Of a stretch of DNA of 42,423 bases, positions 23,231 through 36,722 are shown one piece after another. Every line of letters begins with the position of its first letter. Within the stretch, counting starts at the first letter, position 1. The notes under the pieces are model-generated. The model did no database searches. It was not told the origin of the DNA and saw only the letters and a program-made list of their open reading frames with translations. The stretch lies in the NCBI GenBank assembly GCA_947625045.1, contig CANQMW010000025.1, positions 1 to 42,423 on the forward strand, given 5' to 3'. Source of the DNA: an uncultured Oscillospiraceae bacterium (GTDB taxonomy: Bacteria; Bacillota; Clostridia; Oscillospirales; Oscillospiraceae). The position numbers and the translations under genes are program-made.

Positions 23231-23243
23231 GGATAAGAAAAGT

Positions 23244-23286
23244 AACAGACCTTCCTGCCTGTCATAGGCAGGAAGGTCTGTTGCTT
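23244..23286 (+). terminator. Strong terminator closing the signalling operon
   Basis: AACAGACCTTCCTGCCT (23244-23260) pairs perfectly over 17 bases with its complement at 23266-23282, loop GTCAT. It also lies just past the end of the convergent minus-strand accessory operon (ending 23302) and can stop transcription from both sides. It marks the left edge of the accessory region. Confidence 0.9.
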
Positions 23287-23301
23287 ATGCCGCGATATAA
23301 G

Positions 23302-24810
23302 CTATGCCCGCATCATTTCTATATAGTTCAAGGGGTTTGCCAGTACGGGGACGCCATCCGGGGTGTTTCCTGTGTCAAAAACTTTCTTCCAATAATCATA
23401 ATTGTTCTTCCCGGAGAAGATAGTTTCTGCAAATTCCCTGTTTTTCCACAACGGAAGGTTGATCAGGTTTCTGACAAAATTGGTTATATTGGTCCACATC
23501 GCGTCATCAAAAGGGATTTGGAATTCACATCCGTTTCCCAAAGGCCTTCCCTTGCTCAAAAGAAGGAATTGGATGAGCTGTTTCAGGTATCCTACCCAGT
23601 TTCGCAATATCTCTTCTTTCGAGATACGATAGGCAGCCAAATGATCATCCGTGATGTCCGCTGCGTTGTTCTTTATGATCCTCTGTTCTATACGATAGAC
23701 GCCGATCTCCGGTTTGAACTTGTCGATATATATTTCATTTGCGACGATATTGAGCAAATGGATTATCTGCCGCTGCTCCACCTCGCGGGGATTCTCTCCT
23801 TCGTCGATCTTATAATTGATGGGAGTCGTCATGATATTTGAATTGCTCAAGAGTGTCGATAAGAAAGCTTTGTCAAAAGCGCTGTACGAAATGGGCAGCT
23901 CTTTTGCGCGCCCCTCAAAATCTATATACGTTCTTAATTTGTTTTGAGGAGAATGCGTGATCTGGTTTTTGATGCTGTTTATGATAAGCGTTTTCAGAGA
24001 GGCCTCGCCTCTGAAATAGTCTACCAAATTCTGCTCCGAGAAGCTGTAATCATCTTCTTTCAAATCATGCTCTTTTTGATATTTTCGGATCTTGTCTTCA
24101 TAAAGCGTATCGTGAAGCTGGCGAAGGATCGATTGATCGAATGCGATCTGTCGTAAATTGCTCCCGGCGTTTGTATTGGTGATAATGAGACGGTCAAGAT
24201 CCGGCTGGATAAATAAGCGGATCAGCAGTTTTCTTTGCCCGAAAAGAAGCTGAGCGACAGCCTTATGCTGACCATCAAATATTTTGACCTTATTGTCATC
24301 CACTCTTGCGAGGGATAAATGGAGTTGCGGATTCTTCTGATAGAACTCTTTTACAAGCTTATTGATGCTGCTGTTGATGCCGCGGGGATTGATCAGCTCA
24401 TCGTGAAATATGTATTCGATCGGAAGCTCAATGAAAACTGTCTGTTCACCGGACAACGCGTCAGTATAAATAGGGACAGAAACGATGTCCTCTTTACCCA
24501 TGTCGGACAAAGCGTATTTGAATACGCCATTCTCTATCTTAAAGCGCATTTTATACTTTGATCCGCCAAAATACTCTAAAACATGGCGCAGCGAAACAGA
24601 GCCCGTCTTGCTCGTTCCCAATTCGCCGGATGTAATTTTCTGCTTGATATCATCCAATACAGCTAAGGAACGTGCGACTGTCAGATCGGCGTCTTTCTTA
24701 TTTATTGGTGAGTCGGTGCCGGTTGTTATACTTTCTGTCTGCCGATCCGTTTGTGGTTCTGCTATAGACCAGTCGGCATAGGCGCACAATGCACAGAAAG
24801 TCTTTGCCAT
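23302..24810 (-). CDS. DGQHR-motif protein (DndB-like), last gene of the restriction operon
   Basis: A 502-aa soluble protein. It carries VKIFDGQHKAVAQLLFGQRK, with DGQHK at residues 179-183, close to the DGQHR motif that defines DndB-type and related DNA-modification-associated proteins. Before it are LSLARVDDN and IELPIEYIFHDELINPRGIN; after it IITNTNAGSNLRQIAFDQSI, matching the usual order of a ParB/DndB-like core followed by an Asn/Gln-rich helix. The C-terminal half is helical with no recognised domain. An N-terminal CALC (Cys6, Cys9) is present, but the first 45 residues look unstructured. There are no DndA/C/D/E genes, so this is not a phosphorothioation cluster. It starts 5 bases after the small ORF upstream and is AT-rich relative to hsdR. 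Role unknown; regulation or targeting of the restriction system is a guess. Confidence 0.6.
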   Translation of the reverse strand: MAKTFCALCAYADWSIAEPQTDRQTESITTGTDSPINKKDADLTVARSLAVLDDIKQKITSGELGTSKTGSVSLRHVLEYFGGSKYKMRFKIENGVFKYALSDMGKEDIVSVPIYTDALSGEQTVFIELPIEYIFHDELINPRGINSSINKLVKEFYQKNPQLHLSLARVDDNKVKIFDGQHKAVAQLLFGQRKLLIRLFIQPDLDRLIITNTNAGSNLRQIAFDQSILRQLHDTLYEDKIRKYQKEHDLKEDDYSFSEQNLVDYFRGEASLKTLIINSIKNQITHSPQNKLRTYIDFEGRAKELPISYSAFDKAFLSTLLSNSNIMTTPINYKIDEGENPREVEQRQIIHLLNIVANEIYIDKFKPEIGVYRIEQRIIKNNAADITDDHLAAYRISKEEILRNWVGYLKQLIQFLLLSKGRPLGNGCEFQIPFDDAMWTNITNFVRNLINLPLWKNREFAETIFSGKNNYDYWKKVFDTGNTPDGVPVLANPLNYIEMMRA

Positions 24811-24815
24811 TTGGG

Positions 24816-25007
24816 TTATTGTTGCAGGCGCTTTTGAGCCATTAATATACCCGCGGTACAGATTTCTTCAGGGGAGCGTCCAACATCAATTATAGAAATT
24901 ACATTATGTTTGATTTCATCAGAATAATTCTGACTTCCCTTTACGATGCCTTTTAAGGTCTCCTTGTACAAATGTTCCCGCAGTTTCGCTTCTTCTATAG
25001 TACTCAT
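24816..25007 (-). CDS. Small hypothetical protein in the restriction operon
   Basis: A 63-aa protein I do not recognise. It is mostly helical and charged (MSTIEEAKLREHLYKETLKG at the start, IDVGRSPEEICTAGILMAQK near the end), with no TM or signal. GGAGGAGG precedes its ATG at 25007, a strong ribosome site, which argues it is real. It lies 17 bases after hsdR and ends 5 bases before the DGQHR gene, so it is probably translated together with that gene and may be its partner subunit or an N-terminal domain split off from it. Confidence 0.6.
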   Translation of the reverse strand: MSTIEEAKLREHLYKETLKGIVKGSQNYSDEIKHNVISIIDVGRSPEEICTAGILMAQKRLQQ

Positions 25008-25024
25008 TTGATTTCCTCCTCCTG

Positions 25025-28000
25025 CTACGCCGCGGCGGCGTTGGCGTTGATGCGGTCGATGACGCGCCGTATGCCTGCCCAGACGGTGAGGTCTGTGAAT
25101 ACCTCCACGATGCTGCCCTGGTCGGTGAAGGGCGGCTCCTGCAGCACGGACAGGTCCTTCATGAGCCCATTGTGGACGATGTATTCCACGATTTGGTTGA
25201 CGAAGTATATCTGCCGGCTGTCCAGGTTCGCGCTCTCCAGATACTCCGAGAAAGCTGCCTTGGCGGCGTTCATGTCCAGGCCCACGATCTCCCGGACGAA
25301 TTCGCCCAGGGGCTTGGCGCCGTATTCCGCCTCATAATCCTCTTTCGTGCCTACCTCGCTCCAGAGGATCCCCTCAAGTTGCTTCACATCCGCCTCCGTC
25401 AGGGGCACGTTGCTCCGCAGTTTGGCGATGGCGGCATTGTCCAGATGCTGCCGCACATAGTACTCCGCCTTGGCCCGGTAATTTTTCAGCTCGTCGCTGT
25501 CCAGCTCCGCGTCCTTCCACTCCATGGAGAGTATCTCGTCGGAAAAGTCAGTGTCGTAATGCAAATGGGGTTTGGGTATATATTTTATCAGGTCCCGCAA
25601 ACACTGGCGGATGTGCTCGAATTCGTTGATGCCCGCGGTCTCCAGATAGTCCGTGCGCAGGATGCGGTCGATGAGCTCCGCCTGCATCATAATCTCTGGG
25701 ATGTTGGCGACGCTGGCCACGGCGCTGACCTTTTTTATCAGGTCGCTCCGGGCGCGGGTATATTTCTTCCCCGCGAGGTAGGCAAGCTCTATGCCATACA
25801 TCAGCGCGTCGAAGCGCAGGGCCTTGGGGTCGTCCTGCTCCGGCTCGATCAGCGGCGCCAGCTCCTCACCCATAAGAAGCGTATCCTCATAGGTCAGCGT
25901 TTGATAATTCTTCTCCTCCGCGTATAGTTCCACATATTTCAAATGCTGCCGCACGGCGAAGTTTTCCCGGTTCAGCTGCCGCACTTTGCCTGCCATGTCC
26001 TCCACCAGCGAGGCGCGGAACGCCATAAGCTCCGGCGTCTGATAGGCCAGGTCCTGCAACTTGAAAGCGATCTGCGCTTTCAGGTGAAACAGGGCGCCGG
26101 ACAGAGCGATCATGTTGGCGGAAGGCCGGCCCTTGTTCATGCGGAAGAACGCAAAGTTGCCGCAAAAGTCGAAGATGTAAAACTTGCTCTTGTCCTCGCC
26201 GTCTATGAGCCCCGGGCACAGCCGGGTGCCCCGGCCGATCATCTGCCAGAACTTGGCCTTGCTCATGACCTTCTTGAAGAACACCAGATTCAGCACCTCC
26301 GGCACGTCGATGCCGGTGTCCAGCATGTCCACGGAGATGGCGATCTGGGGCAGCTTTTTAGGGTCGGAGAACTCGTCGATGGCGCTCTGGGCATAGTTGA
26401 TGTAGTTGTCGATGACCTTGGCATAGCCCGTAAGATGGGGATATTCCCTGCCGAATACCTCCAATATTTTTTCGGCGTGGGTGTGGTTTTTCGCGAAGAT
26501 GATGGTCTTGCCGATCCTGTTGCCGTAGTCGATCTTCAGACCATCGGTCATGAGGACATGCAGCACCTGGCGGATGGTGTCCTCATTGAATATCCACTCG
26601 TTGAGGGCGGAGGAGGCGATGCGATCGGGCAGGTCCCTGTTCTCGTCCTCGAAGGTGTCCTCGTAAGCCTGCTTGTCCTCCTCGGAGAGGTCGTCGTATA
26701 CGATGCCCTCCTGGATGAACTTCAGTGCCGTCTCCACCGACACGAAATCCACAAGATACCCGTCCTTCACCGCCTGGGCCAGCTCGTATCCGTAGGTTGG
26801 CACGCCGCTCTCCAGCTCGAATATATCATAGGTGTTCTTGTCAATGTCGTCTTTGGGCGTGGCGGTCAGGCCCACCAGCGGCGCGTCGAAGTAGGTAAAG
26901 ATGTCCTTGTACTTGTTATAGATGGAGCGATGGGCCTCGTCGCATATGACCAGGTCGAAATGGCCGCAGGTGAACAGCTTGCCCTCCTCGTCCCGGGCTG
27001 CGTCGATACAGTTCATCATAGTCTGGTAGGTAGAGAACACGCCGTGGGCGGTGTAGTTGTCCTTCTCCTCGCAGAGGTTCGTGACGGACAGATCCTTTAG
27101 TAAATTCACAAAGCTGCGCTTAGCTTGGGTGACCAGGCTGTTGCGGTCGGCCAGGAAGAGGACGTTTTTGATCCAGCCCTGCTCCAGCAGCACTTTCACC
27201 AGAGCGATGACCGTCCGGGTCTTGCCGGAGCCGGTGGCCATGACCAGCAGGGCCCTGCGGCGGTTTTTTCGCCCAAAGGCGTCGCACACCGCCTTGACGG
27301 CGCCCTCCTGGTAGTAGCGCCCGGCGATGGTCTTGTCCACCATGATGTTTTTCAGGCTGGAGCGCATGGACTGGAGGTTAAAGAGCTTCTCCAGGTCTCG
27401 CTTGGAGTAGATGGCCGCCACCTTCCGCTCGGGATACTGGTTGTCCACGATGCGTGTCTCGAAGCCGTTGGTGAGGAACACCACCGGCCGGCGGCCCTGC
27501 TTTTTTTCGATGATGTCCGCATAGAGTTTGGCCTGCTGGCGGCCCCTGGACACGTCCACGCAGGTGCGCTTGGCCTCGATGACCGCCAAGGCCCGGCCGT
27601 CGCTTCCATAGAGCACATAGTCGGCGTAGCCCATCTTGCTCTGGTTGGGCATGCCGGGCAGATCCACCTCGTTCAGCCAATCCTTCCCCTCGGTCCAGCC
27701 CGCGTCGGTGAGCATGGCGTCTATGTAGAGCTTGCGGGTCTTGTACTCGGACAGGTCCAGGGGCTTGGGCACATAGGTCTGCTGCTGCTGGGCCCGGCGG
27801 GCGGAAAGCTCCTCCTTGAGGGCCCGGTTCTCCTCCATGAGCTTTTCCAGGTCCGCCTCCATCTCCGGCGGGAGGTTGGGCACAATCTGGGGCTCCTGCT
27901 GGAGGAGCGAGCGGTCGAAGTTGCGCTCGGCGTAATCCTCCGCGTAGCAGCAAGCCACGAAGTCCAGGAACACAAACAGGTTTTCCAGGCACAGCTCCGC

Positions 28001-28318
28001 CTGCTCCCGGCTGACCTTCCGGCCACTGTGGGCGGCGTTGTTGCCCACCTTGCGGATGAAGTTCATCCGCCGCCAGATGTCCACGCCCACGATGCCTCGG
28101 AAATCCTCGGCGTTCATGAGGCTGACCAGCGTGTCCTGGTAGGGCTTGTCCAAGGCCTTGTCCACGGAGTACATCCACTTGACGGCGAACTCCATCGCCC
28201 TGCGGCAGTTGAGCACGCAGGCGTCCAGGTCCATATGCAGCAGCTTCTCCGCCGACACCGCCGCCTCCCCGAAGGGGGCAAACTCCGGCGAGGAGAGGAG
28301 GAAATCAAAATTGGTCAT
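25025..28318 (-). CDS. hsdR: Type I restriction endonuclease, subunit R
   Basis: A 1097-aa motor and nuclease subunit. The N-terminal ~110 residues look like a DUF4145 domain (LHMDLDACVLNCRRAMEFAV and GNNAAHSGRKVSREQAELCL). A short coiled coil near 155-180 follows, then the PD-(D/E)xK nuclease (YVLYGSDGRALAVIEAKRT near 235-253, with RGRQQAKLYADII). The SF2 helicase has Walker A MATGSGKTRT near residue 360, DEAH near 458, LVGLTATPKDDIDKNTYDIF, and MLDTGIDVPEVLNLVFFKKV with MIGRGTRLCPGL. The C-terminal region resembles EcoEI_R_C. With HsdM and HsdS it cleaves unmodified DNA after translocation. It is GC-rich like the core, unlike the gene upstream, which shows a mosaic operon. The start at 28318 follows AGGAGG-type bases. 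Confidence 0.95.
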   Translation of the reverse strand: MTNFDFLLSSPEFAPFGEAAVSAEKLLHMDLDACVLNCRRAMEFAVKWMYSVDKALDKPYQDTLVSLMNAEDFRGIVGVDIWRRMNFIRKVGNNAAHSGRKVSREQAELCLENLFVFLDFVACCYAEDYAERNFDRSLLQQEPQIVPNLPPEMEADLEKLMEENRALKEELSARRAQQQQTYVPKPLDLSEYKTRKLYIDAMLTDAGWTEGKDWLNEVDLPGMPNQSKMGYADYVLYGSDGRALAVIEAKRTCVDVSRGRQQAKLYADIIEKKQGRRPVVFLTNGFETRIVDNQYPERKVAAIYSKRDLEKLFNLQSMRSSLKNIMVDKTIAGRYYQEGAVKAVCDAFGRKNRRRALLVMATGSGKTRTVIALVKVLLEQGWIKNVLFLADRNSLVTQAKRSFVNLLKDLSVTNLCEEKDNYTAHGVFSTYQTMMNCIDAARDEEGKLFTCGHFDLVICDEAHRSIYNKYKDIFTYFDAPLVGLTATPKDDIDKNTYDIFELESGVPTYGYELAQAVKDGYLVDFVSVETALKFIQEGIVYDDLSEEDKQAYEDTFEDENRDLPDRIASSALNEWIFNEDTIRQVLHVLMTDGLKIDYGNRIGKTIIFAKNHTHAEKILEVFGREYPHLTGYAKVIDNYINYAQSAIDEFSDPKKLPQIAISVDMLDTGIDVPEVLNLVFFKKVMSKAKFWQMIGRGTRLCPGLIDGEDKSKFYIFDFCGNFAFFRMNKGRPSANMIALSGALFHLKAQIAFKLQDLAYQTPELMAFRASLVEDMAGKVRQLNRENFAVRQHLKYVELYAEEKNYQTLTYEDTLLMGEELAPLIEPEQDDPKALRFDALMYGIELAYLAGKKYTRARSDLIKKVSAVASVANIPEIMMQAELIDRILRTDYLETAGINEFEHIRQCLRDLIKYIPKPHLHYDTDFSDEILSMEWKDAELDSDELKNYRAKAEYYVRQHLDNAAIAKLRSNVPLTEADVKQLEGILWSEVGTKEDYEAEYGAKPLGEFVREIVGLDMNAAKAAFSEYLESANLDSRQIYFVNQIVEYIVHNGLMKDLSVLQEPPFTDQGSIVEVFTDLTVWAGIRRVIDRINANAAAA

Positions 28319-28345
28319 AGGAGGGCACCTCCGTATAGCAGGGTT

Positions 28346-29578
28346 TTAGTCAAAATCGGATATGTTTAGGAGACCAGTATGTGTAGAGAAAACTTCAATA
28401 CACATTTCTGTGGTGAGGCTACCTTTTTCAAATAGCTCAAAGATTGATAAAAGAGTCTCTGTGCATACTATTAAGCATCCATTACGCTTTGCAAAAGCAA
28501 TTTGGTCCGAGTGAATTGGATCACGTTCCATAGGCGGTTTATTCCGGAACGGATTTATAATTAGCAATTGATGAACATCTTCTACCAAATGTTCGTCGTG
28601 TAATCGGTCTAAGTAATCATAATAGTGATGATCAATTTGAGAGATATATCCATTTCTTACATTTGTTGATACTCCTTTAATCTCCCCAATAAATGTAAGG
28701 TTACCTTTTTTTATTAGGAAATCTTCATGTTTGTCGTCGATGAAGTTTGATAAATCGTAATCCAAAACTCTTTCTAATATATCAAATACTACTTCTACAA
28801 GTTCATTACCTGTTGTATAGAGGATGGATTTATAACGAGCATTTTCTGCCAATTTTGATTTAGCAGATGCAACTTTCTGACCAGCTTCTAAAATTAACTG
28901 GGTGTTTTCAGAAACAATGCTATTCTGAATTATATCATCAAAGAATATAATATTTTCCATCCATTCAGGTGCTTCCTCACCGTTTTCTACTGAAAACAAG
29001 GCATTAATATAATCGTTCAGTTTTTTTGCCGACTCAGTAATTTTTAGGGTGGTTGCATAAGCGCGTTTATCCATAACGCCAATTGTTGTAACTTTATTAC
29101 TAAGACTTGAATAGGTTAGTTTAGTACACCCAGCTTCAAAATAAAAGTCTGCATTATATGTAAAACCATTGACATCAGTTTTAGTCGGTTCAAATAAAAG
29201 CTGGAAATCGGGAAAGTTACTAGGTAAAAGCTTGGAAAAGACAAAATTACAGATATGAGGAATAACATTCTTTATCTCGGCGCATTTATTATACTTACCA
29301 TAATTATAATTATAGGAAAACTGGAGATTCTGCGGGAGTGCATATAAAACAGTTGATTTCTTCCTTTTATCCGCCATTATCTTGAGGGATTTAAAATCCT
29401 CTACACAGTTGACACTTGTACAGTCGCTTCCCTTATTATACCAAATGTCAGGTGAGGATAAATCAATAATGTTAACGTCAAATTCATCTAAGGAACACGG
29501 ACTGTTTAGCGTTGAGACAGTAATATTAGGAAAACCGGAGGAGGGAGATGCTTTGAATTGTATTAACTGTAGCTTCAT
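28346..29578 (-). CDS. Unknown 410-aa protein with a candidate PD-(D/E)xK nuclease domain, between hsdS and hsdR
   Basis: I do not recognise a named family. The C-terminal third looks like a restriction-endonuclease fold: helix GNELVEVVFDILERVL (258-272), EDFLIKKGNLTFIGEIKG with Glu285/Asp286 and Glu299-x-Lys301, then helix YISQIDHHYYDYLDRLHDEH and strand VHQLLIINPF. That order fits PD-(D/E)xK. The first ~180 residues hold DEFDVNIIDLSSPDIWYNKG, possibly Rossmann-like, and VLYALPQNLQFSYNYNYGKY. The gene is strikingly AT-rich between GC-rich neighbours, so it was probably acquired separately. It is 27 bases after hsdS and 27 before hsdR, inside the operon. It could be an extra effector nuclease that adds a second mode of attack. 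Confidence 0.55.
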   Translation of the reverse strand: MKLQLIQFKASPSSGFPNITVSTLNSPCSLDEFDVNIIDLSSPDIWYNKGSDCTSVNCVEDFKSLKIMADKRKKSTVLYALPQNLQFSYNYNYGKYNKCAEIKNVIPHICNFVFSKLLPSNFPDFQLLFEPTKTDVNGFTYNADFYFEAGCTKLTYSSLSNKVTTIGVMDKRAYATTLKITESAKKLNDYINALFSVENGEEAPEWMENIIFFDDIIQNSIVSENTQLILEAGQKVASAKSKLAENARYKSILYTTGNELVEVVFDILERVLDYDLSNFIDDKHEDFLIKKGNLTFIGEIKGVSTNVRNGYISQIDHHYYDYLDRLHDEHLVEDVHQLLIINPFRNKPPMERDPIHSDQIAFAKRNGCLIVCTETLLSIFELFEKGSLTTEMCIEVFSTHTGLLNISDFD

Positions 29579-29605
29579 ATTCTAATCTCCATAAATTATT
29601 TATAT

Positions 29606-30739
29606 TTATCCAAAGTATTTCTGCATCAGGCTGTCGAAGAGCAGCTGGGCCTTGTCCAGCGCGCTCTGCACGGCAGCTTTTGATTTATCGACTAGGGAAA
29701 CAAAGTCAGCGAATTGGTTTTGTAGCGGTAGCGGAGGAATAGAGATCACCAGCGGTGCAATGTCCTTATTATTAATTTGTGGGACGGATGATCCATTGTC
29801 TAAAGCACCGAGATCAATCAAGCAAAAATAGGCCATTAAGTATTGCGGCGTTATCTGTTCCTCGGCTGTTACACCCATTACATTGAGATCGGCACAAATT
29901 GGTATGGTCGTTAATCGCTTTTTGTTCGTCCCAATTGCGCCACCTCTTTTTGGAAAAATAACCGTTCCAATCGGGAAAACGCCAGACCCTGCCGTCTTTT
30001 CAGAGACAAAGCGCGAAGATGTGGTGATGTAATGCTCATTGCCAGGATAGCTCATATCTCCGACCTTGACATACGGTATGATTCCGCCCTCGTTCTCCTT
30101 TTCGGCAGATAAAGACGTTCCGCTCCTGATTGTACAACAGTTCCCTATGGTTGTCTGCATCCAACCATAAGGATTGCTCTCTATATCCCCAAATATCTCG
30201 ACAAATCTGACTTTTACGAGTTCATCCAGTTTGACAAGTCTCTGTTTGTCGCTTGAAATGACCTTATCTACACAATTCAGTGTAGCAACTATCTGCTTCT
30301 GCACATCTTTGTCTACCTTGGGAACCGGATACTCTGCAACGCGTTTTGGCTGGGCACGTGTCAGCGAGCCGCCTATACCGGTAACTTCGCTCACCATCAG
30401 TTTTTTGAATATCGGAGAACGAAAATACCAAGCTAAAAATTCCGGGTCGTATTCTTTGCTCCGTATAACGATCCACTCTGATGAGGCGATACTTTGATAT
30501 TCTGTTTCATCGGCCACGATCCAAACGCGGTTGATGCGCGGGTTGATTTTACACAGCAATACATCACCTTTCCGCACGATCTGTTTATTGGAGGCGATCT
30601 CGCTGCCGAGAAGATACTCTGGATGGCCGGTGTCAAAGCTTGGAACGCTGTAAACTTCAAATGTAGTATTAGGGGTGTTTGACGGGCTGACGCTTTTGCT
30701 CACATATTCATTGATTTTTCCAATGGTCGTATACTCCAT
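29606..30739 (-). CDS. hsdS: Type I restriction system specificity subunit S
   Basis: A 377-aa HsdS with the two-target-recognition-domain layout. TRD1 spans about residues 1-135, ending AEYPVPKVDKDVQKQIVATL (the PLPPL-like boundary). A conserved helical spacer LDELVKVRFVEIFGDI comes next, TRD2 spans about 190-335 (YGWMQTTIGNCCTIRSGTSL start), and the second boundary is ISIPPLPLQNQFADFVSLVD followed by a helix ending LFDSLMQKYFG. The two spacers set the distance between the half-sites of a bipartite recognition sequence. It is AT-rich, as hsdS genes often are after TRD exchange. It begins 9 bases after hsdM. Only one copy is present, and I found no inverted partial copy for shuffling. Confidence 0.92.
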   Translation of the reverse strand: MEYTTIGKINEYVSKSVSPSNTPNTTFEVYSVPSFDTGHPEYLLGSEIASNKQIVRKGDVLLCKINPRINRVWIVADETEYQSIASSEWIVIRSKEYDPEFLAWYFRSPIFKKLMVSEVTGIGGSLTRAQPKRVAEYPVPKVDKDVQKQIVATLNCVDKVISSDKQRLVKLDELVKVRFVEIFGDIESNPYGWMQTTIGNCCTIRSGTSLSAEKENEGGIIPYVKVGDMSYPGNEHYITTSSRFVSEKTAGSGVFPIGTVIFPKRGGAIGTNKKRLTTIPICADLNVMGVTAEEQITPQYLMAYFCLIDLGALDNGSSVPQINNKDIAPLVISIPPLPLQNQFADFVSLVDKSKAAVQSALDKAQLLFDSLMQKYFG

Positions 30740-30748
30740 CTCTCCCCC

Positions 30749-32257
<1,509 letters not shown>

Positions 32258-32258
32258 G

Positions 32259-33317
32259 TCAGTCTTTCTCCCTGTTCCAAGTGTACGCGGTGTAGCGCCC
32301 GCCGCCCAGCTTGATGACTTGGCCGGACTTTACCAGCTCGTTCAGCGCCCGCTGGACTGTGATCTGGGCGACATCCGGGCATTTTTCCATGATCTGCGCC
32401 TTGGTGACGGTCCCCAGCGTATCCTTGATGAGCTCCCGCACCCGATCGGGCTTGGAAAGATTCGGGTCGGTCAGCATCTGCGCCCGCTGGTCAAACTCCC
32501 GATAGGCCGCTACCACCACGCCCAGCATATACCGGGCGAAGGGGGCATAGTCGTTGTTTTCCTCGTGCCAGCCGTCGGAACTCTCCAGAAGGACCTCGTA
32601 ATAGGTCTCCTTGCTGGTCTCGATGAGCCGCTCGATGGAGATATATTTCCCCACGTCATAGCCGGCCCGGTACAGGAGCAGCAGTGTCAGAAGTCTGCTC
32701 ATGCGGCCGTTGCCGTCGTTGAAGGGATGGATGCAGAGGAAGTCCAAGATGAACATGGGCAGAAGCAGCAGCGGGTCCACGGTCGGCTCCCGGAGAGCTT
32801 CGTCGTATGCCGCACAAAGCCTGTCCATGGACTCGGGAGTTTCCCAGGCGGAGACAGGCTGGAAGCGCACCGTCTTGTTCCCGGCGGCGTCTATTTCCTC
32901 AATGATGTTATCGGAATTCTTATATTGCCCGCCAATGGCCAGACCGCTGTATTTATAGAGGTCTCGGTGGAGCTGCAGAATGACGGAAGGCCGCAGAGGG
33001 ATATAGTCATGGCTTTCGTGGATGGCAGCCAGAACGTCCCTGTATCCGGCTATCTCCTTTTCGCCGCGGGTCCTGGGCATGGTCTTTTCCTGCACGATCT
33101 TCTTTAGCCGCTCGTCCGACGTGTAGATGCCCTCGATCTTGTTGGAGGCCTCCGTGCTCTGGATCTTGGCGATCTCCACCAACTTTGTGAGCGTGTCCCT
33201 CCCGGTGACCATGAGCTTGGCTTGTTTGCCCTTGAACTCGTGGATCTGGGACAGCAGCGACACGATGTCAGGGGAGAGGAGGGTACTATACTTGTCTATA
33301 AAGCTGTAATTTCTCAT
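32259..33317 (-). CDS. Fic-domain protein with N-terminal auto-inhibitory motif and C-terminal winged helix
   Basis: A 352-aa Fic AMP-transferase-type protein and the first gene of the restriction operon. The Fic core motif HPFNDGNGRMSR is intact at 197-208. An N-terminal SNKIEG (Ser58-Glu62-Gly63) matches the (S/T)xxxE(G/N) inhibitory helix, making it class II, auto-inhibited. The last ~85 residues (KPDRVRELIKDTLGTVTKAQ and TVQRALNELVKSGQVIKLGG) form a winged helix, so it may bind DNA and regulate its own operon. Fic proteins are recurrent passengers in type I restriction loci, but what they modify there is not known. Its stop is 1 base from the hsdM start. Promoter TTGACA/TATAAT lies about 40 bases upstream. 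Confidence 0.9.
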   Translation of the reverse strand: MRNYSFIDKYSTLLSPDIVSLLSQIHEFKGKQAKLMVTGRDTLTKLVEIAKIQSTEASNKIEGIYTSDERLKKIVQEKTMPRTRGEKEIAGYRDVLAAIHESHDYIPLRPSVILQLHRDLYKYSGLAIGGQYKNSDNIIEEIDAAGNKTVRFQPVSAWETPESMDRLCAAYDEALREPTVDPLLLLPMFILDFLCIHPFNDGNGRMSRLLTLLLLYRAGYDVGKYISIERLIETSKETYYEVLLESSDGWHEENNDYAPFARYMLGVVVAAYREFDQRAQMLTDPNLSKPDRVRELIKDTLGTVTKAQIMEKCPDVAQITVQRALNELVKSGQVIKLGGGRYTAYTWNREKD

Positions 33318-33355
33318 AAGATCACCCTTAAATGGAAATGGAATATGACATGGTC

Positions 33356-33385
33356 ATTATATAGCCTGATATACATGCCTGTCAA
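33356..33385 (-). promoter_or_regulatory. Promoter of the restriction operon
   Basis: Read on the minus strand, TTGACA (complement of 33380-33385), 18 bases, then TATAAT (complement of 33356-33361): both boxes are perfect consensus. It lies 39 bases before the Fic start and should drive all seven genes down to 23302. The AT-rich surroundings and CATGT-type repeats nearby leave room for a Fic winged-helix operator. Confidence 0.8.
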
Positions 33386-33439
33386 CAATTAATTTTATCA
33401 TTTTTTAAAAAATGAGCAAATTAAACAAGGGAAGAACAA

Positions 33440-33463
33440 GAGCCGCCGGAGACCCGGCGGCTC
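33440..33463 (-). terminator. Hairpin that fits the displaced guaA terminator
   Basis: GAGCCGCCGG (33440-33449) pairs perfectly with CCGGCGGCTC (33454-33463). Read on the minus strand it is followed by TTGTTCTTCCC, and it comes 34 bases after the guaA-like stop in the left attachment repeat. It would be the natural guaA terminator if the element between 33497 and 39769 were removed. It now sits behind the FicT gene. Confidence 0.65.
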
Positions 33464-33496
33464 ATCTGGTCGTTCAGTATGTGTGGGCGATATATG

Positions 33497-33509
33497 CTTA
33501 TTCCCACTC
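33497..33509. repeat. Left attachment repeat
   Basis: CTTATTCCCACTC is identical to the sequence covering the guaA stop. On the minus strand it reads GAGTGGGAATAAG (Glu-Trp-Glu-stop). The bases on either side differ from those at guaA, which limits the crossover core to about 13 bp. Confidence 0.7.
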
Positions 33510-33627
33510 GCCAAGGAGAAGATGATTCTAAACGCTGTTGTTTAGATGATTTGACTTCTCCTTATATGATTTGATACCGATTATCCAACGATCACGGCGT
33601 TGCTGAGCGGATGTTATCAAATTTGTA
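33510..33627. other. Non-coding end of the integrative element
   Basis: With the preceding stretch from 33318 this gap has no credible ORF. It holds short repeats typical of an attachment region: ATGATTTGA-type boxes at about 33547 and 33567, TTTGATAC at 33570-33577 and GTTATCAAA at 33613-33621, the last found twice more near the other end. A CTAAACGCTGTTGTTTAG inverted repeat lies at about 33529-33546. These are candidate integrase/excisionase arm sites. Confidence 0.5.
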
Positions 33628-34227
33628 TCAGAGGCTAATCTGCTTGATCGCGCTGGCCAATAGGCTCCGTAGCAAATCAGTCACGCCCTGAGCCGACTGG
33701 ATAGTGGCGATCATCAGAAGATCGCCATCGATTTTGGCAAAGTTCAGCATGTAGCCAGCGTTTTGTGCCAGCTGGGACAGAAATACACGCTGCGTTCTGC
33801 CGTTTCCCTCGCGAAAAGGGTGGAGCATGTTCGTAGAAACATAGAAGTCTACCAGGGCGTCCACAAATGAATCCTTTGCCATCCCGCGAAGAAAGTTCTG
33901 CTCTTTGAGATACAAGAACACCCTATCTGCCTGTTCAGTGATTTTCTCTGCGGGGCAGAAGACGGTTCCCTTTTTGCTGATGTTTACATCGCGCACTTGC
34001 CCGGCCCAATCATAAAGGTCTGCGAACAGAAAACGATGGATTGCTTTGTAATGCTCAAAGTCAAATGAGTCTTTCCCCGGCGCGTTCAGCCATTGGGCGC
34101 TCCTTGCAGCGGTAAGGGTACCTTCGACTTCGCTTAGGGTCGCATCATCATGAATATCAAACTTGTTGATAAGGACCGTTGTACCCGGATAGCAGTTGGC
34201 GGAAATCGGATCGATGCTGTAAGCCAT
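33628..34227 (-). CDS. FicT toxin, class I Fic AMP-transferase
   Basis: A 199-aa single-domain Fic protein with the complete motif HPFREGNGRTQR (136-147) and the upstream flap GTVFCPAEKI; LYDWAGQVRDVNISK is also a family hallmark. It lacks an internal (S/T)xxxE(G/N) helix, as expected for class I, whose inhibitor is a separate small antitoxin, here encoded 1 base upstream. Known FicT toxins AMPylate DNA gyrase and topoisomerase IV and stop growth, so the pair may stabilise the element or act in defence. The GC content is intermediate. It is unrelated in layout to the class II Fic of the restriction operon, although both lie within 1 kb. Confidence 0.9.
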   Translation of the reverse strand: MAYSIDPISANCYPGTTVLINKFDIHDDATLSEVEGTLTAARSAQWLNAPGKDSFDFEHYKAIHRFLFADLYDWAGQVRDVNISKKGTVFCPAEKITEQADRVFLYLKEQNFLRGMAKDSFVDALVDFYVSTNMLHPFREGNGRTQRVFLSQLAQNAGYMLNFAKIDGDLLMIATIQSAQGVTDLLRSLLASAIKQISL

Positions 34228-34228
34228 G

Positions 34229-34408
34229 TTACTCAGCCTTCTTCAATTTGCGGGCGGTTATCTCACGCACCAGCTCGGAGACAGAAACTCTGCCATCCAA
34301 AAGGCGCAGACAATCCTGCCGGGTCTGTTCTGTTATCTCAAAGCCCTCCATCTTGGTAGAGGCAAGAGAAGAATCAAGCGCAAGTTCGCGGGAAAAGGTG
34401 TTATCCAT
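34229..34408 (-). CDS. FicA/VbhA-like antitoxin
   Basis: A 59-aa helical protein beginning MDNTFSRELALDSSLASTKM. It carries the inhibitory motif STKMEG (Ser17-Glu21-Gly22), the (S/T)xxxE(G/N) sequence whose Glu blocks ATP binding in the Fic toxin. The C-terminal half (DGRVSVSELVREITARKLKK) looks like an added helical segment of the VbhA antitoxin family. ATG 34408 is chosen: GGGGGG lies about 8 bases upstream, whereas a GTG at 34417 would put the ribosome site almost on the start. Its TAA and the toxin ATG are 1 base apart, the classical coupled toxin-antitoxin order. Promoter TTGTAA/TATAAT is 30 bases upstream. Confidence 0.82.
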   Translation of the reverse strand: MDNTFSRELALDSSLASTKMEGFEITEQTRQDCLRLLDGRVSVSELVREITARKLKKAE

Positions 34409-34437
34409 TGTATGCACCCCCCAAATCGACTACTGAT

Positions 34438-34466
34438 ATTATATTGCATTTTAGAAAGAATTACAA
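34438..34466 (-). promoter_or_regulatory. Promoter of the ficA-ficT pair
   Basis: On the minus strand, TTGTAA (complement of 34461-34466), 17 bases, TATAAT (complement of 34438-34443). It drives the antitoxin first, then the toxin. Confidence 0.7.
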
Positions 34467-34513
34467 GTACCGAGAAGCTCGTGAGCTTTGATTGTACATA
34501 TTTCCGGGATAGA

Positions 34514-34542
34514 TTGATGGATGGCACACTGTGTGATATAAT
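34514..34542 (+). promoter_or_regulatory. Promoter of the MBL-fold hydrolase gene
   Basis: TTGATG (34514-34519), 17 bases, TATAAT (34537-34542), 35 bases before the start codon. It is divergent from the toxin-antitoxin promoter. Confidence 0.7.
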
Positions 34543-34577
34543 GGTCACGCATTCCTGGACGACTGGAAGAACGATCT

Positions 34578-35342
34578 ATGAGTGATTGGTTTACGATAGA
34601 ACAAATCGATACGGATACTTACGCGATCAGTGAGTACAAGCATTGGGAAGAAACACATTGCTATCTTCTCTGCGGAACAGACAAAGCGATTCTGATTGAT
34701 ACAGGCTTGGGCGTCGCCAATATTCGGGAAGTGGTGGACAGCCTTACCGCGCTTCCTGTCCTGGTGGTCACCACCCATGTCCATTGGGACCACATTGGCG
34801 GACACAAGTATTTTGACAGAATTGCGGTACATGAAGCGGAGACTGATTGGCTTTCTGTCAAGTTTCCAATACCATTGCCAGTGGTCAAGAGCAACCTGAT
34901 GCGCGAACCTTGCGGTTTTCCAAGCGGTTTTTCTATTGATAGCTACGAGGTTTTTCAAGGTGCGCCACAAAGAGTTTTGCATGATGGAGATCGTCTGGAC
35001 CTAGGTAACAGGCAGTTAACAGTCATACATACGCCTGGACACTCTCCCGGTCATTGCTGCTTCTATGAGAGGGAAAGAAAGTATCTGTATTCCGGGGATT
35101 TGATTTATCGGGGCTGTCTCGATACGTTTTATCCGACAACCAACCCACGGAAATTCTGGCAGTCTGTGAAGAAGATCCAGAAACTCGATATAGCAAGAAC
35201 CATGCCTGGCCATCATCAGCTAAATATTCCTGTAGCCTTGATTGATAGAATAGAAAAAGGATTCAGCGAATTGGCGGCTTCCGGTAAACTGGAACAGGGA
35301 AATGGCATATTCGATTTTGGTGATTTCCAAATCCACACCTGA
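34578..35342 (+). CDS. MBL-fold metallo-hydrolase
   Basis: A 254-aa cytosolic metallo-beta-lactamase-fold hydrolase. Two-metal motifs are visible: THVHWDHIGGH (His67, His69, Asp71, His72), HTPGHSPGHCC near 151-161, YLYSGDLIYRG near 172 and PGHHQLN near 213. It resembles the glyoxalase II-like/quorum-quencher-like general branch and is not a clear beta-lactamase. It is cargo of the integrative element with its own promoter, AT-rich compared with the core, and not part of the toxin-antitoxin pair. A terminator follows 16 bases after the stop. Substrate unknown. Confidence 0.88.
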   Translation: MSDWFTIEQIDTDTYAISEYKHWEETHCYLLCGTDKAILIDTGLGVANIREVVDSLTALPVLVVTTHVHWDHIGGHKYFDRIAVHEAETDWLSVKFPIPLPVVKSNLMREPCGFPSGFSIDSYEVFQGAPQRVLHDGDRLDLGNRQLTVIHTPGHSPGHCCFYERERKYLYSGDLIYRGCLDTFYPTTNPRKFWQSVKKIQKLDIARTMPGHHQLNIPVALIDRIEKGFSELAASGKLEQGNGIFDFGDFQIHT

Positions 35343-35358
35343 ACCCACTATATATTGG

Positions 35359-35382
35359 ACAAGCCCGCGTCAGCGGGCTTGT
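35359..35382 (+). terminator. Terminator after the MBL gene
   Basis: ACAAGCCCGC (35359-35368) and GCGGGCTTGT (35373-35382) form a perfect 10-bp hairpin with loop GTCA. The T tract is weak (GTGTGCTGTT), so termination may be partial. Confidence 0.65.
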
Positions 35383-35661
35383 GTGCTGTTATCCACTTAA
35401 TGACCAAATTTCCGACGCGAGGCCTCGGTCAAGGACCGGCCAGCCGAAGGCTGACCGGCTCGTTCAGCGATCGCGACAGCAATCGCCAAGCCTTGACAGA
35501 GACCGCACGCCGGAATATAATTTGGACAAGGGATAACCGCTCCGCTGTCAGGGGCTTGGGGCCTGCCCCAACAAGGTCATTTGGTAGCACAAATGACATA
35601 CTTGCTAGCTAGCTAGAGATAACTCGCAATATCTACACATTCTTATATGGAGGATAGTCTG
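35383..35661 (+). other. Structured non-coding region with a perfect consensus promoter
   Basis: There is no credible ORF across about 280 bases. It holds TTGACA (35493-35498), 17 bases, TATAAT (35516-35521), both boxes perfect. Hairpins include CCGGCCAGCC-GAA-GGCTGACCGG (about 35435-35459), GGGGC/GCCCC around 35552-35569, GTCATTTG/CAAATGAC (about 35577-35598) and the palindrome CTAGCTAGCTAG at about 35604. The promoter would transcribe a ~130-base leader into the next gene, or a small RNA. The GC-rich inverted repeats followed by a nick-like AT stretch could also be an oriT remnant. I cannot decide between these. Confidence 0.45.
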
Positions 35662-36600
35662 ATGTATACACCTTCTAAAGAGTTCTGCGAGCCATTTATA
35701 CTCACGGAGGAGAACATACGCAAAATTGTAAAAATTATTGAAGATAATCGTCCTAAGTATTCTAAAGAAGTGAGTTTGCACGGTCAAGACTTGAATGAAC
35801 AATATAATCCTGTATTTACATATAGACGACTTGATAATTATGAGCAAGAGACGACTAGTATTACCGCACTTTTCAAGGAAGAAAACCATGGGATGAGCCG
35901 AATAACTAGTCTGGAGATTGCTTCTAATAATTATTCAATTGCTGATGCAAAGATTACTGATACAGAACTTAATTATGAAATTAGATTTAGAAGCTGTGAA
36001 GATGCGGATGCTTATGACGACATTAATCTTATGCTTTTTAATAGCATTACAATTGGCGTTAAGGGTATAGATCGAACAAAGAGTGAATTTCTATTCAAGG
36101 AATTGGACAATTATATTCAGAATAGTGTTATTTCGAAAAAATATAGACTATTAGTTTCTATATATAGAAGAATGTTTTCTCTTAGAATATCTATCCTCGT
36201 TTTACTATTAATAGTCACACTATACCAAACGTTCCCACTTTTAAATAAAGCTAAAGAAAGCCAAAGTATTATTACTAATGCACTTGAATCATCAGACATG
36301 ATTGAAAAGGTCGATGCACTATTATCTGTTCAGATGATTAGTGATACTTCTGTCAAAAGCTTTTTCCCTATTGTAACGATGATGGGAGTAGTCATGCTTA
36401 TCTATCTGATTTCTTTTAGTAAAAAGCTTAAGAAATTCTTTGCTTCTCGTCTTCCATTTGTATTTGAATTTGGACGATCCCCCGAGGATTATCAAACTAG
36501 AATTAGAGGCGTGAAGGCGGTACTCGGTGTTATTGGGGCATTAATTATTGGTGTATTTGGGAATTTTCTGTGGACTATTATCAGTAATTTGCTTCAATAA
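35662..36600 (+). CDS. Unknown membrane protein with a cytoplasmic N-terminal domain
   Basis: A 312-aa protein I do not recognise. Residues 1-170 are soluble and acidic (PFILTEENIRKIVKIIEDNR near the start, YRRLDNYEQETTSITALFKE near 55, IRFRSCEDADAYDDINLMLF near 115). Three hydrophobic segments follow: RISILVLLLIVTLYQTFPLL near 177, VTMMGVVMLIYLISF near 240, and VLGVIGALIIGVFGNFLWTI near the C-terminus. The gene is very AT-rich, the most foreign-looking in the element. ATG 35662 is preferred over 35647 because GGAGG at 35649-35653 sits 8 bases before it. A soluble sensor with a C-terminal membrane anchor, alone behind a consensus promoter, fits a phage-defence effector or immunity-type cargo, but this is inference. 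Confidence 0.6.
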   Translation: MYTPSKEFCEPFILTEENIRKIVKIIEDNRPKYSKEVSLHGQDLNEQYNPVFTYRRLDNYEQETTSITALFKEENHGMSRITSLEIASNNYSIADAKITDTELNYEIRFRSCEDADAYDDINLMLFNSITIGVKGIDRTKSEFLFKELDNYIQNSVISKKYRLLVSIYRRMFSLRISILVLLLIVTLYQTFPLLNKAKESQSIITNALESSDMIEKVDALLSVQMISDTSVKSFFPIVTMMGVVMLIYLISFSKKLKKFFASRLPFVFEFGRSPEDYQTRIRGVKAVLGVIGALIIGVFGNFLWTIISNLLQ

Positions 36601-36668
36601 TATAACTAGCAGAAAACAGCTTGTTCTATCGTATTTTCCCATGTGGTTCTTTCCAGGTCGTACCATCA

Positions 36669-36711
36669 AGCGCCACCAGCGCGAAGCATACTGCTTCGCG
36701 CTGGTGGCGCT
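36669..36711. terminator. Bidirectional terminator with a 20-bp perfect stem
   Basis: The 20 bases 36669-36688 are the exact reverse complement of 36692-36711, with loop TAC. Placed between the converging membrane-protein gene (plus) and the tnpV gene (minus), it can stop both transcripts. T tracts are short on both sides. Confidence 0.75.
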
Positions 36712-36722
36712 ATTGCTAGTGA

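Follow-up and report, generated by a model that had tools for sequence, protein, structure and literature searches.

Probably exchangeable accessory genes in a Fic-led type I restriction-modification operon of an uncultured Oscillospiraceae bacterium

When genes of other kinds lie inside a type I restriction-modification (R-M) operon, do they work as parts of one machine, or do they occupy places through which genes come and go? The question is posed by contig CANQMW010000025.1 of an uncultured Oscillospiraceae bacterium (42,423 nucleotides, nt; called the window here, at its full length). Seven open reading frames (ORFs) run on its minus strand from 33317 to 23302 and encode, in order, a Fic protein, HsdM, HsdS, a 410-amino-acid (aa) protein that we call X, HsdR, a 63-aa product and a protein with a DGQHK motif. 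A first-pass annotation of this DNA saw a specific composite defence machine in this arrangement. Our comparisons favour a different reading, to which we assign a probability of about two in three: a type I R-M operon with a constant frame (promoter, operator, Fic, hsdM, hsdS and hsdR) that holds exchangeable accessory genes in two slots.

The gaps between the genes are 1, 9, 27, 27, 17 and 5 nt, in operon order. Upstream of fic lies a sigma-70-type promoter, TTGACA-N18-TATAAT (33356–33385, minus strand), which matches the consensus at 12 of 12 positions. The 11.7-kb region has one match of this quality, whereas 300 first-order Markov simulations gave 0.007 on average, and similar –35 and –10 elements stand 5' of fic in most of 15 Fic-bearing relatives. 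Terminator-like hairpins on the minus strand flank the unit, one of 17 pairs 3' of the last gene (23244–23282) and one of 10 pairs before the promoter (33440–33463), between the operon and an upstream FicB-VbhA unit. The sole minus-strand terminator candidate between them is a 5-pair hairpin within the last gene; the scan overall returned 12 sites versus 12.2 in shuffles, hence no excess. Judged from the DNA, the seven genes probably form one transcription unit. The promoter and tight spacing reported by the first-pass annotation are thus borne out, and so is its claim that the accessory genes are positioned for expression with the R-M genes.

Pfam matches above cut-offs confirmed Fic, HsdM, HsdS and HsdR, and the domains of the last three are those of a predicted type I R-M system. 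HsdM (30749–32257, minus strand) is a putative N6-adenine methyltransferase (N6_Mtase 2.7e-64, HsdM_N 3e-9; MTase_I 1.1e-179), HsdS (29606–30739, minus strand) a specificity subunit with two Methylase_S stretches, and HsdR (25025–28318, minus strand) a restriction subunit combining a nuclease with a superfamily 2 (SF2) translocase (HSDR_N, ResIII, EcoEI_R_C; REase_I 2.3e-163). Neither Pfam nor NCBIfam gave a hit at E 0.1 for X, the 63-aa ORF or the 502-aa DGQHK protein, and of these three the DGQHK protein alone had a PADLOC match, a weak one.

To see which parts of the operon are constant, we turned to its relatives. An HsdM search of 300 genomes of the source family gave 30 places in 28 genomes at E 1e-100 or better. 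We examined 27 of these (the window, L008 and 25 others; G847, G679 and G638 were left out) and added L119, an operon from another family of the same class, for 28 loci in all (the window, L008, L090–L114 and L119). The closest relative, L090, comes from the same genus, with protein identities to the window of 87% for Fic, 95% for HsdM and 93% for HsdR. DNA identity is 91% over hsdR and the 63-aa region, 93% over the last 100 nt of hsdS, 89% from hsdM through fic with the promoter, and 96% in the gene beyond the operon. No L090 DNA match spans 28337–29604, which holds X, or 23241–24844, which holds the DGQHK gene; most of the rest of hsdS, its variable part, is likewise without a match, as is a block of 3.3 kb that lies 5' of the operon. 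The first of these stretches is a cargo slot between hsdS and hsdR, its edges falling at the hsdS stop and the hsdR ribosome-binding site, and in L090 it is filled by a DUF2806 gene. In the second slot, 3' of hsdR, L090 has a GHKL ATPase gene after the 63-aa ORF in place of the DGQHK gene. L090 thus swaps both X and the DGQHK gene and keeps Fic, M and R. Random partners elsewhere were what the first-pass annotation had named as counting against its own reading, and this pair of operons suggests instead that the Fic-hsdMSR frame is constant and its cargo exchangeable.

The same pattern is seen across the operon family. Slot contents were counted in the 20 of 28 loci with both hsdS and hsdR (hsdS of L091 was detected by tblastn only). 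Of the eight dropped, seven are cut by contig ends (L092, L094, L106, L109, L111, L113 and L114) and one, the 15.5-kb locus L093, had no hsdR detected. The hsdS-hsdR slot is filled by non-hsd genes in 17 operons and empty in three (L098, L103 and L104). By main cargo, its contents fall into 11 kinds that vary among related operons: X in three (the window, L008 and L119), DUF2971 in three (L102 and L107, with L108 assigned by 78% identity), DUF2806 in two (L090, with L100 assigned by 48% identity), a 191/250-aa pair in two (L091 and L096), and, in one operon each, AbiH, TIR, Septu PtuA plus PtuB, a DUF4062/PDC-S35 plus DUF4238 set, a PDC-S47 match, a 266-aa protein and a 300-aa protein. In contrast, the Fic-hsdM junction is shorter than 12 nt in all 16 operons where both genes were seen (Fisher p 1.3e-7 versus the slot, uncorrected for kinship). 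Cargo can also shift slot: the 266-aa protein of L099, between hsdS and hsdR, is 43% identical to an L107 protein encoded 3' of hsdR. We compared 30 cargo proteins and two L008 ORFs with Pfam and 20 proteins with PADLOC, a set drawn partly from outside the hsdS-hsdR slots of this operon family (for example, the L010 470-aa, L090 GHKL and L101 HipA_C-like proteins). Cargo in seven of the 17 filled slots matched a known or candidate defence family, namely AbiH, TIR, PtuAB, PDC-S31 (twice), PDC-S35 and PDC-S47. A third, less used slot lies between hsdM and hsdS and holds a 375-aa HipA_C-like protein (L101), a 176-aa protein (L102), a nucleotidyltransferase with a 112-aa partner (L105) or a 129-aa protein (L112).

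An HsdR tree of 19 rows (L112 excluded) contains six terminal pairs. Main cargo differs in five of them: the window (X) and L090 (DUF2806), L008 (X) and L097 (AbiH), L095 and L096, L108 and L110, and L099 and L101. In the sixth, L098 and L104, the hsdS-hsdR slot is empty in both operons. X itself appears at two separate places in the tree, the window and a small clade made up of L008, L119 and the AbiH-bearing L097.

We then considered the occupant of the second slot. The DGQHK protein (502 aa; 23302–24810, minus strand) had been described as a DGQHR-type, DndB-like protein. A factor with a predicted nucleotide-binding fold does stand at the end of the operon; the motif, however, reads DGQHK, and no DGQHR or DndB profile in Pfam or NCBIfam matched at E 0.1. 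Its relatives, the widespread HNH-DGQHK family, have an N-terminal PF01844 HNH domain followed by a ParB/sulfiredoxin (Srx) DGQHK domain, the latter with no Pfam match, and comparison of predicted structures recovered ParB/Srx and HNH folds for the family. The window protein, with its fold taken from the relative L014, has the ParB/Srx-fold and helical parts of this family and lacks the HNH domain. We aligned 36 rows (33 of 43 HNH-DGQHK loci, the window, and two genome duplicates, L009 for L016 and L010 for L042), omitting the broken, partial or over-extended copies L012, L024, L035, L037, L044, L046, L050 and L054. HNH residues are retained in 35 of the 36, the exception being the window copy. 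Homology to L012, L013, L014 and L016 begins at about 24707, and the ∼137-nt segment at the expected HNH-coding place (24708–24844) has no detected homology to these relatives and is single-copy in the genome. Taken at the level of sequence, the DGQHK protein is a descendant of a putative HNH plus ParB/Srx-fold nuclease, minus its HNH part.

Is this gene still functional? Its presence in the slot could reflect a mobile HNH-DGQHK nuclease gene whose 5' end was cut on insertion and which is now a functionless, decaying remnant, an account compatible with the exchangeable-cargo reading and one to which we give somewhat less than even odds. The loss of the HNH-coding part, in the window alone among the aligned rows, speaks for this account, and the gene, which starts 5 nt after the 63-aa ORF, has no clear ribosome-binding site. 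With one outgroup, nonsynonymous change is also in excess on the window branch (11/76, versus 1/40 on the L012 branch). Yet all 502 codons are open, and the core, compared with L012, shows a nonsynonymous divergence (dN) of 0.036 against a synonymous divergence (dS) of about 1.0. Moreover, the branches are alike with the other outgroup (6/69 versus 3/49), and most of the window branch may predate the cut.

Type I genes lie within 10 kb of at least eight of the 43 HNH-DGQHK loci, and in each of the eight they share its strand. This is a lower bound, because several of the 43 cover little DNA and the search for type I genes relied on similarity to a few query proteins. The set of 43 includes one pair of near-duplicates, L033 and L035. 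The type IV enzymes GmrSD, BrxU and SspE likewise combine an HNH nuclease with a ParB/Srx-fold domain that bears a DGQxR-type motif (PMC4619093). The predicted fold and related motif are shared by the family studied here, which differs in its reverse domain order, its other HNH family and its DGQHK motif. The GmrSD domains DUF262 and DUF1524 were not matched at E 0.1 by the window protein and do not figure in the 14 families listed for the 36 relatives, and the window copy has no HNH. BrxU and SspE are not among the structural matches listed for the family. Residues 1–39 of the window protein, which are unrelated to the HNH-DGQHK family, matched positions 125–163 of PDC-M34A weakly in PADLOC (E 0.0039). 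Elsewhere, a different (HindI-like) type I system carries an HNH-DGQHK protein and a separate Fic protein 3' of hsdR; its hsdS-hsdR interval encodes a 470-aa protein that neither Pfam nor PADLOC matches (L010:2887–4299).

The 63-aa ORF that precedes the DGQHK gene (24816–25007, minus strand) has a strong ribosome-binding site, aggaggaggaaatcaaa, 5' of its start. It was found in two of the 300 family genomes, the window included, and its last codons differ in the other genome.

The first slot is occupied here by X (28346–29578, minus strand). Its N-terminal part, of unassigned fold, is followed by a long helix and a C-terminal FokI/BspD6I-type PD-(D/E)xK nuclease domain (D286, E299, K301 and Q314). 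Modeling of residues 240–410 predicts the fold of the FokI and Nt.BspD6I nucleases, complete with the D-ExK residues; X differs from those enzymes in its N-terminal part, and a search of solved structures by sequence gave no relevant match. The PD-(D/E)xK-like protein that had been claimed between S and R is therefore upheld, as a FokI-type protein by predicted fold. X lies directly 3' of hsdS in all three carrier operons, whose HsdS proteins are dissimilar (27–33% identity). Relatives of X are solitary in a contig with phage genes and in Fusobacterium, with no hsd genes seen nearby.

These features bear on whether X guards the R-M complex. PrrC, like X, sits between hsdS and hsdR in EcoprrI. 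By analogy, the complex would keep X inactive and release it when a phage inhibits the complex, and the N-terminal half of X could be the sensor. Precedents for embedded cargo are DarTG2, between hsdS and hsdR (PMC12255303), and PrrC, in the type I locus EcoprrI (PMC12707154). But solitary relatives are unexpected for a strict guard, and the cargo of the slot is too diverse for a single guarding contact. We consider a guard role for X unlikely.

At the head of the frame is Fic (352 aa; 32259–33317, minus strand; PF02661 1.4e-15). We take the class II Fic patterns to be a catalytic HPFx(D/E)GNGRxxR and an N-terminal inhibitory (S/T)xxxE(G/N); the protein has both, as HPFNDGNGRMSR at residue 197 and SNKIEG at residue 58, followed by a C-terminal winged-helix-like part. 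These are features of SoFic-type (class II) Fic AMP-transferases. Among solved structures, its best relative is 8uqu (2.1e-82), with SoFic 3eqx, named a Fic-domain transcriptional regulator, at 1.8e-8. Unlike SoFic-type proteins, Fic here scores below the NCBIfam SoFic cut-off, lies within an R-M operon and is accompanied by an operator-like palindrome. Of the 28 loci, 16 have a detected Fic gene, and the view that it partners the type I locus holds to this extent: it is a standing partner in close relatives.

The palindrome, CTCATTT-N6-AAATGAT (33397–33416), lies just upstream of the –35 box, and most Fic-bearing relatives share the consensus ATCATTT-N6/7-AAATGAT in that position. Matches of at least 12/14 were found upstream of 13 of 16 Fic-bearing operons versus one of 11 without detected Fic (p 3e-4, uncorrected for kinship; L112, which has no upstream sequence, was excluded). 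At 13/14 or better, the palindrome occurs once in the window (33397) and 16 times in the 385 kb of the 28 loci, 15 of them upstream of the operon, versus twice in 657 kb of control loci. Since the palindrome adjoins the promoter, is unique in the window and is common to most Fic-bearing relatives, these data suggest that the winged-helix-like end of Fic may regulate the operon through it. A bolder proposal, which we think unlikely, would have the self-inhibited Fic tie expression of the type I enzyme and of any cargo in the slot to its AMP-transfer state via the palindrome, make a split nuclease of the nucleotide-sensing DGQHK protein, its HNH part shed, and the co-expressed X, and class the HNH-DGQHK parents as new, phylum-crossing, nucleotide-gated restriction nucleases.

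Two further observations concern these control regions. L094–L096 have two operator-like palindromes upstream of fic, 68 nt apart. The hsdR ribosome-binding site, GGAGGTGCCCTCC (28319–28336), could pair with itself in the window and in L090, and partially in L008 (GGAG/CTCC); translational control of hsdR by this pairing is possible.

Upstream of the operon is a separate, second Fic unit (33628–34417), in which a VbhT/Fic-like protein (199 aa, HPFREGNGRTQR) follows a VbhA-type antitoxin (62 aa, STKMEG). After ficB comes a repeat of ∼130 nt (33500–33631) with a predicted RNA hairpin (z –2.2) and no Rfam match. A 96% copy follows the 63-aa ORF in L090, and an 83% partial copy is present elsewhere in the genome. 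Apart from this short repeat, the 3.3-kb block that includes the unit (33455–36715) has no match in the L090 locus.

Several points weigh against a constant frame with exchangeable cargo under Fic control. The slot count comes from draft genomes and a single R-M family, and the loci share kinship, so that the p-values overstate independence. X may have entered only twice, as L008 and L119 fall in a single small clade, and the fold model of X leaves out its first 200 residues. Two of the three operons with empty slots, L103 and L104, have a stop within hsdM and may be decaying, and in the L099/L101 pair a second small ORF adjoining hsdR is, by eye, common to both. Ten of the filled slots either had no defence-family match or were outside the PADLOC scan (L096, L100, L119, the X of L008 and the DUF2971 of L108). 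As for the operator, the palindrome was first noticed in the same upstream regions that were later scored. Three Fic operons fall below 12/14 (L091, L101, which has a variant repeat, and L114), and L104 has a perfect palindrome with no Fic gene detected. The winged helix of Fic is indicated by sub-threshold Pfam matches of the helix-turn-helix (HTH) type and by alignment to 8uqu.

Even so, a fixed composite, in which Fic and the products of the three accessory genes (X, the 63-aa ORF and the DGQHK gene) are parts of or guards on the R-M complex, is very improbable: the tight spacing, the shared promoter, the constant place of X and the frequency of Fic speak for it, but among the loci examined the window alone showed the complete order Fic-M-S-X-R-small-DGQHK, L090 lacks X and the DGQHK gene although its Fic, M and R are intact, and the carriers of X have unlike HsdS. 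X was not found in the 43 DGQHK loci, nor the DGQHK gene in the X-bearing L008 and L119; in genome G145, a distant relative of X and a DGQHK gene lie on separate contigs. X and the DGQHK gene each occur with other partners, and the specific machine of the first-pass annotation is not sustained.

How might a constant frame with changing cargo work? The R-M enzyme would handle unmodified foreign DNA. The cargo, here a FokI-like nuclease solitary elsewhere in the first slot and a DGQHK protein minus its HNH in the second, would most likely be an independent second layer, a nuclease or an abortive infection system, against phages that escape R-M. Exchange of cargo probably proceeds by recombination within two conserved stretches, the end of hsdS and the start of hsdR, and a newcomer placed in this way would at once be transcribed from the R-M promoter. 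Fic most likely has a dual part. Its self-inhibited AMP-transferase domain would be a latent effector, and its winged-helix-like end most likely binds the promoter-side palindrome, setting operon expression.

The general idea of embedded genes is already known from published cases. In the RptR-RMS-DarTG2-M48 island of enteropathogenic Escherichia coli (EPEC), the hsdS-hsdR interval holds DarTG2, and a recombination hotspot at this place has been suggested by the authors of that study (PMC12255303). That island resembles the present operon in its embedded hsdS-hsdR cargo and further downstream gene, and a small upstream gene there represses the shared promoter via palindromic sites. It differs in that the regulator is the 79-aa RptR, whereas the upstream gene here encodes Fic; the cargo is unrelated, and turnover is seen here across one operon family. 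TgvAB, on VPI-2 of Vibrio cholerae, is a GmrSD-like type IV restriction system that lies within a type I operon (PMC11411939); it has DUF262 and DUF1524, whereas the family described here combines a PF01844 HNH domain at the N terminus with a DGQHK ParB/Srx domain, the HNH being absent from the window copy. Campylobacter loci carry the extra ORFs rlo (hsdR-hsdS) and mlo (hsdS-hsdM) (PMC5183652), and PrrC is embedded in the type IC locus EcoprrI (PMC12707154). The cargo here consists of TIR, AbiH, PtuAB, FokI-like X, DUF2971, DUF2806 and others. Among the papers listed by our literature searches, none was seen to describe a Fic-led frame with a palindrome, X or the HNH-DGQHK family.

What this operon family adds is a view, at DNA resolution, of how a type I R-M locus can serve as a loading dock, with Fic, M and R retained and the cargo changing even among close relatives. 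The Fic-linked palindrome offers a directly testable regulator for such operons. Because cargo turns over in a constant frame, embedding may serve as a route to finding defence genes; the candidates that it brings up here are X, the 191/250-aa pair, the 300-aa protein, DUF2806 and the HNH-DGQHK family.

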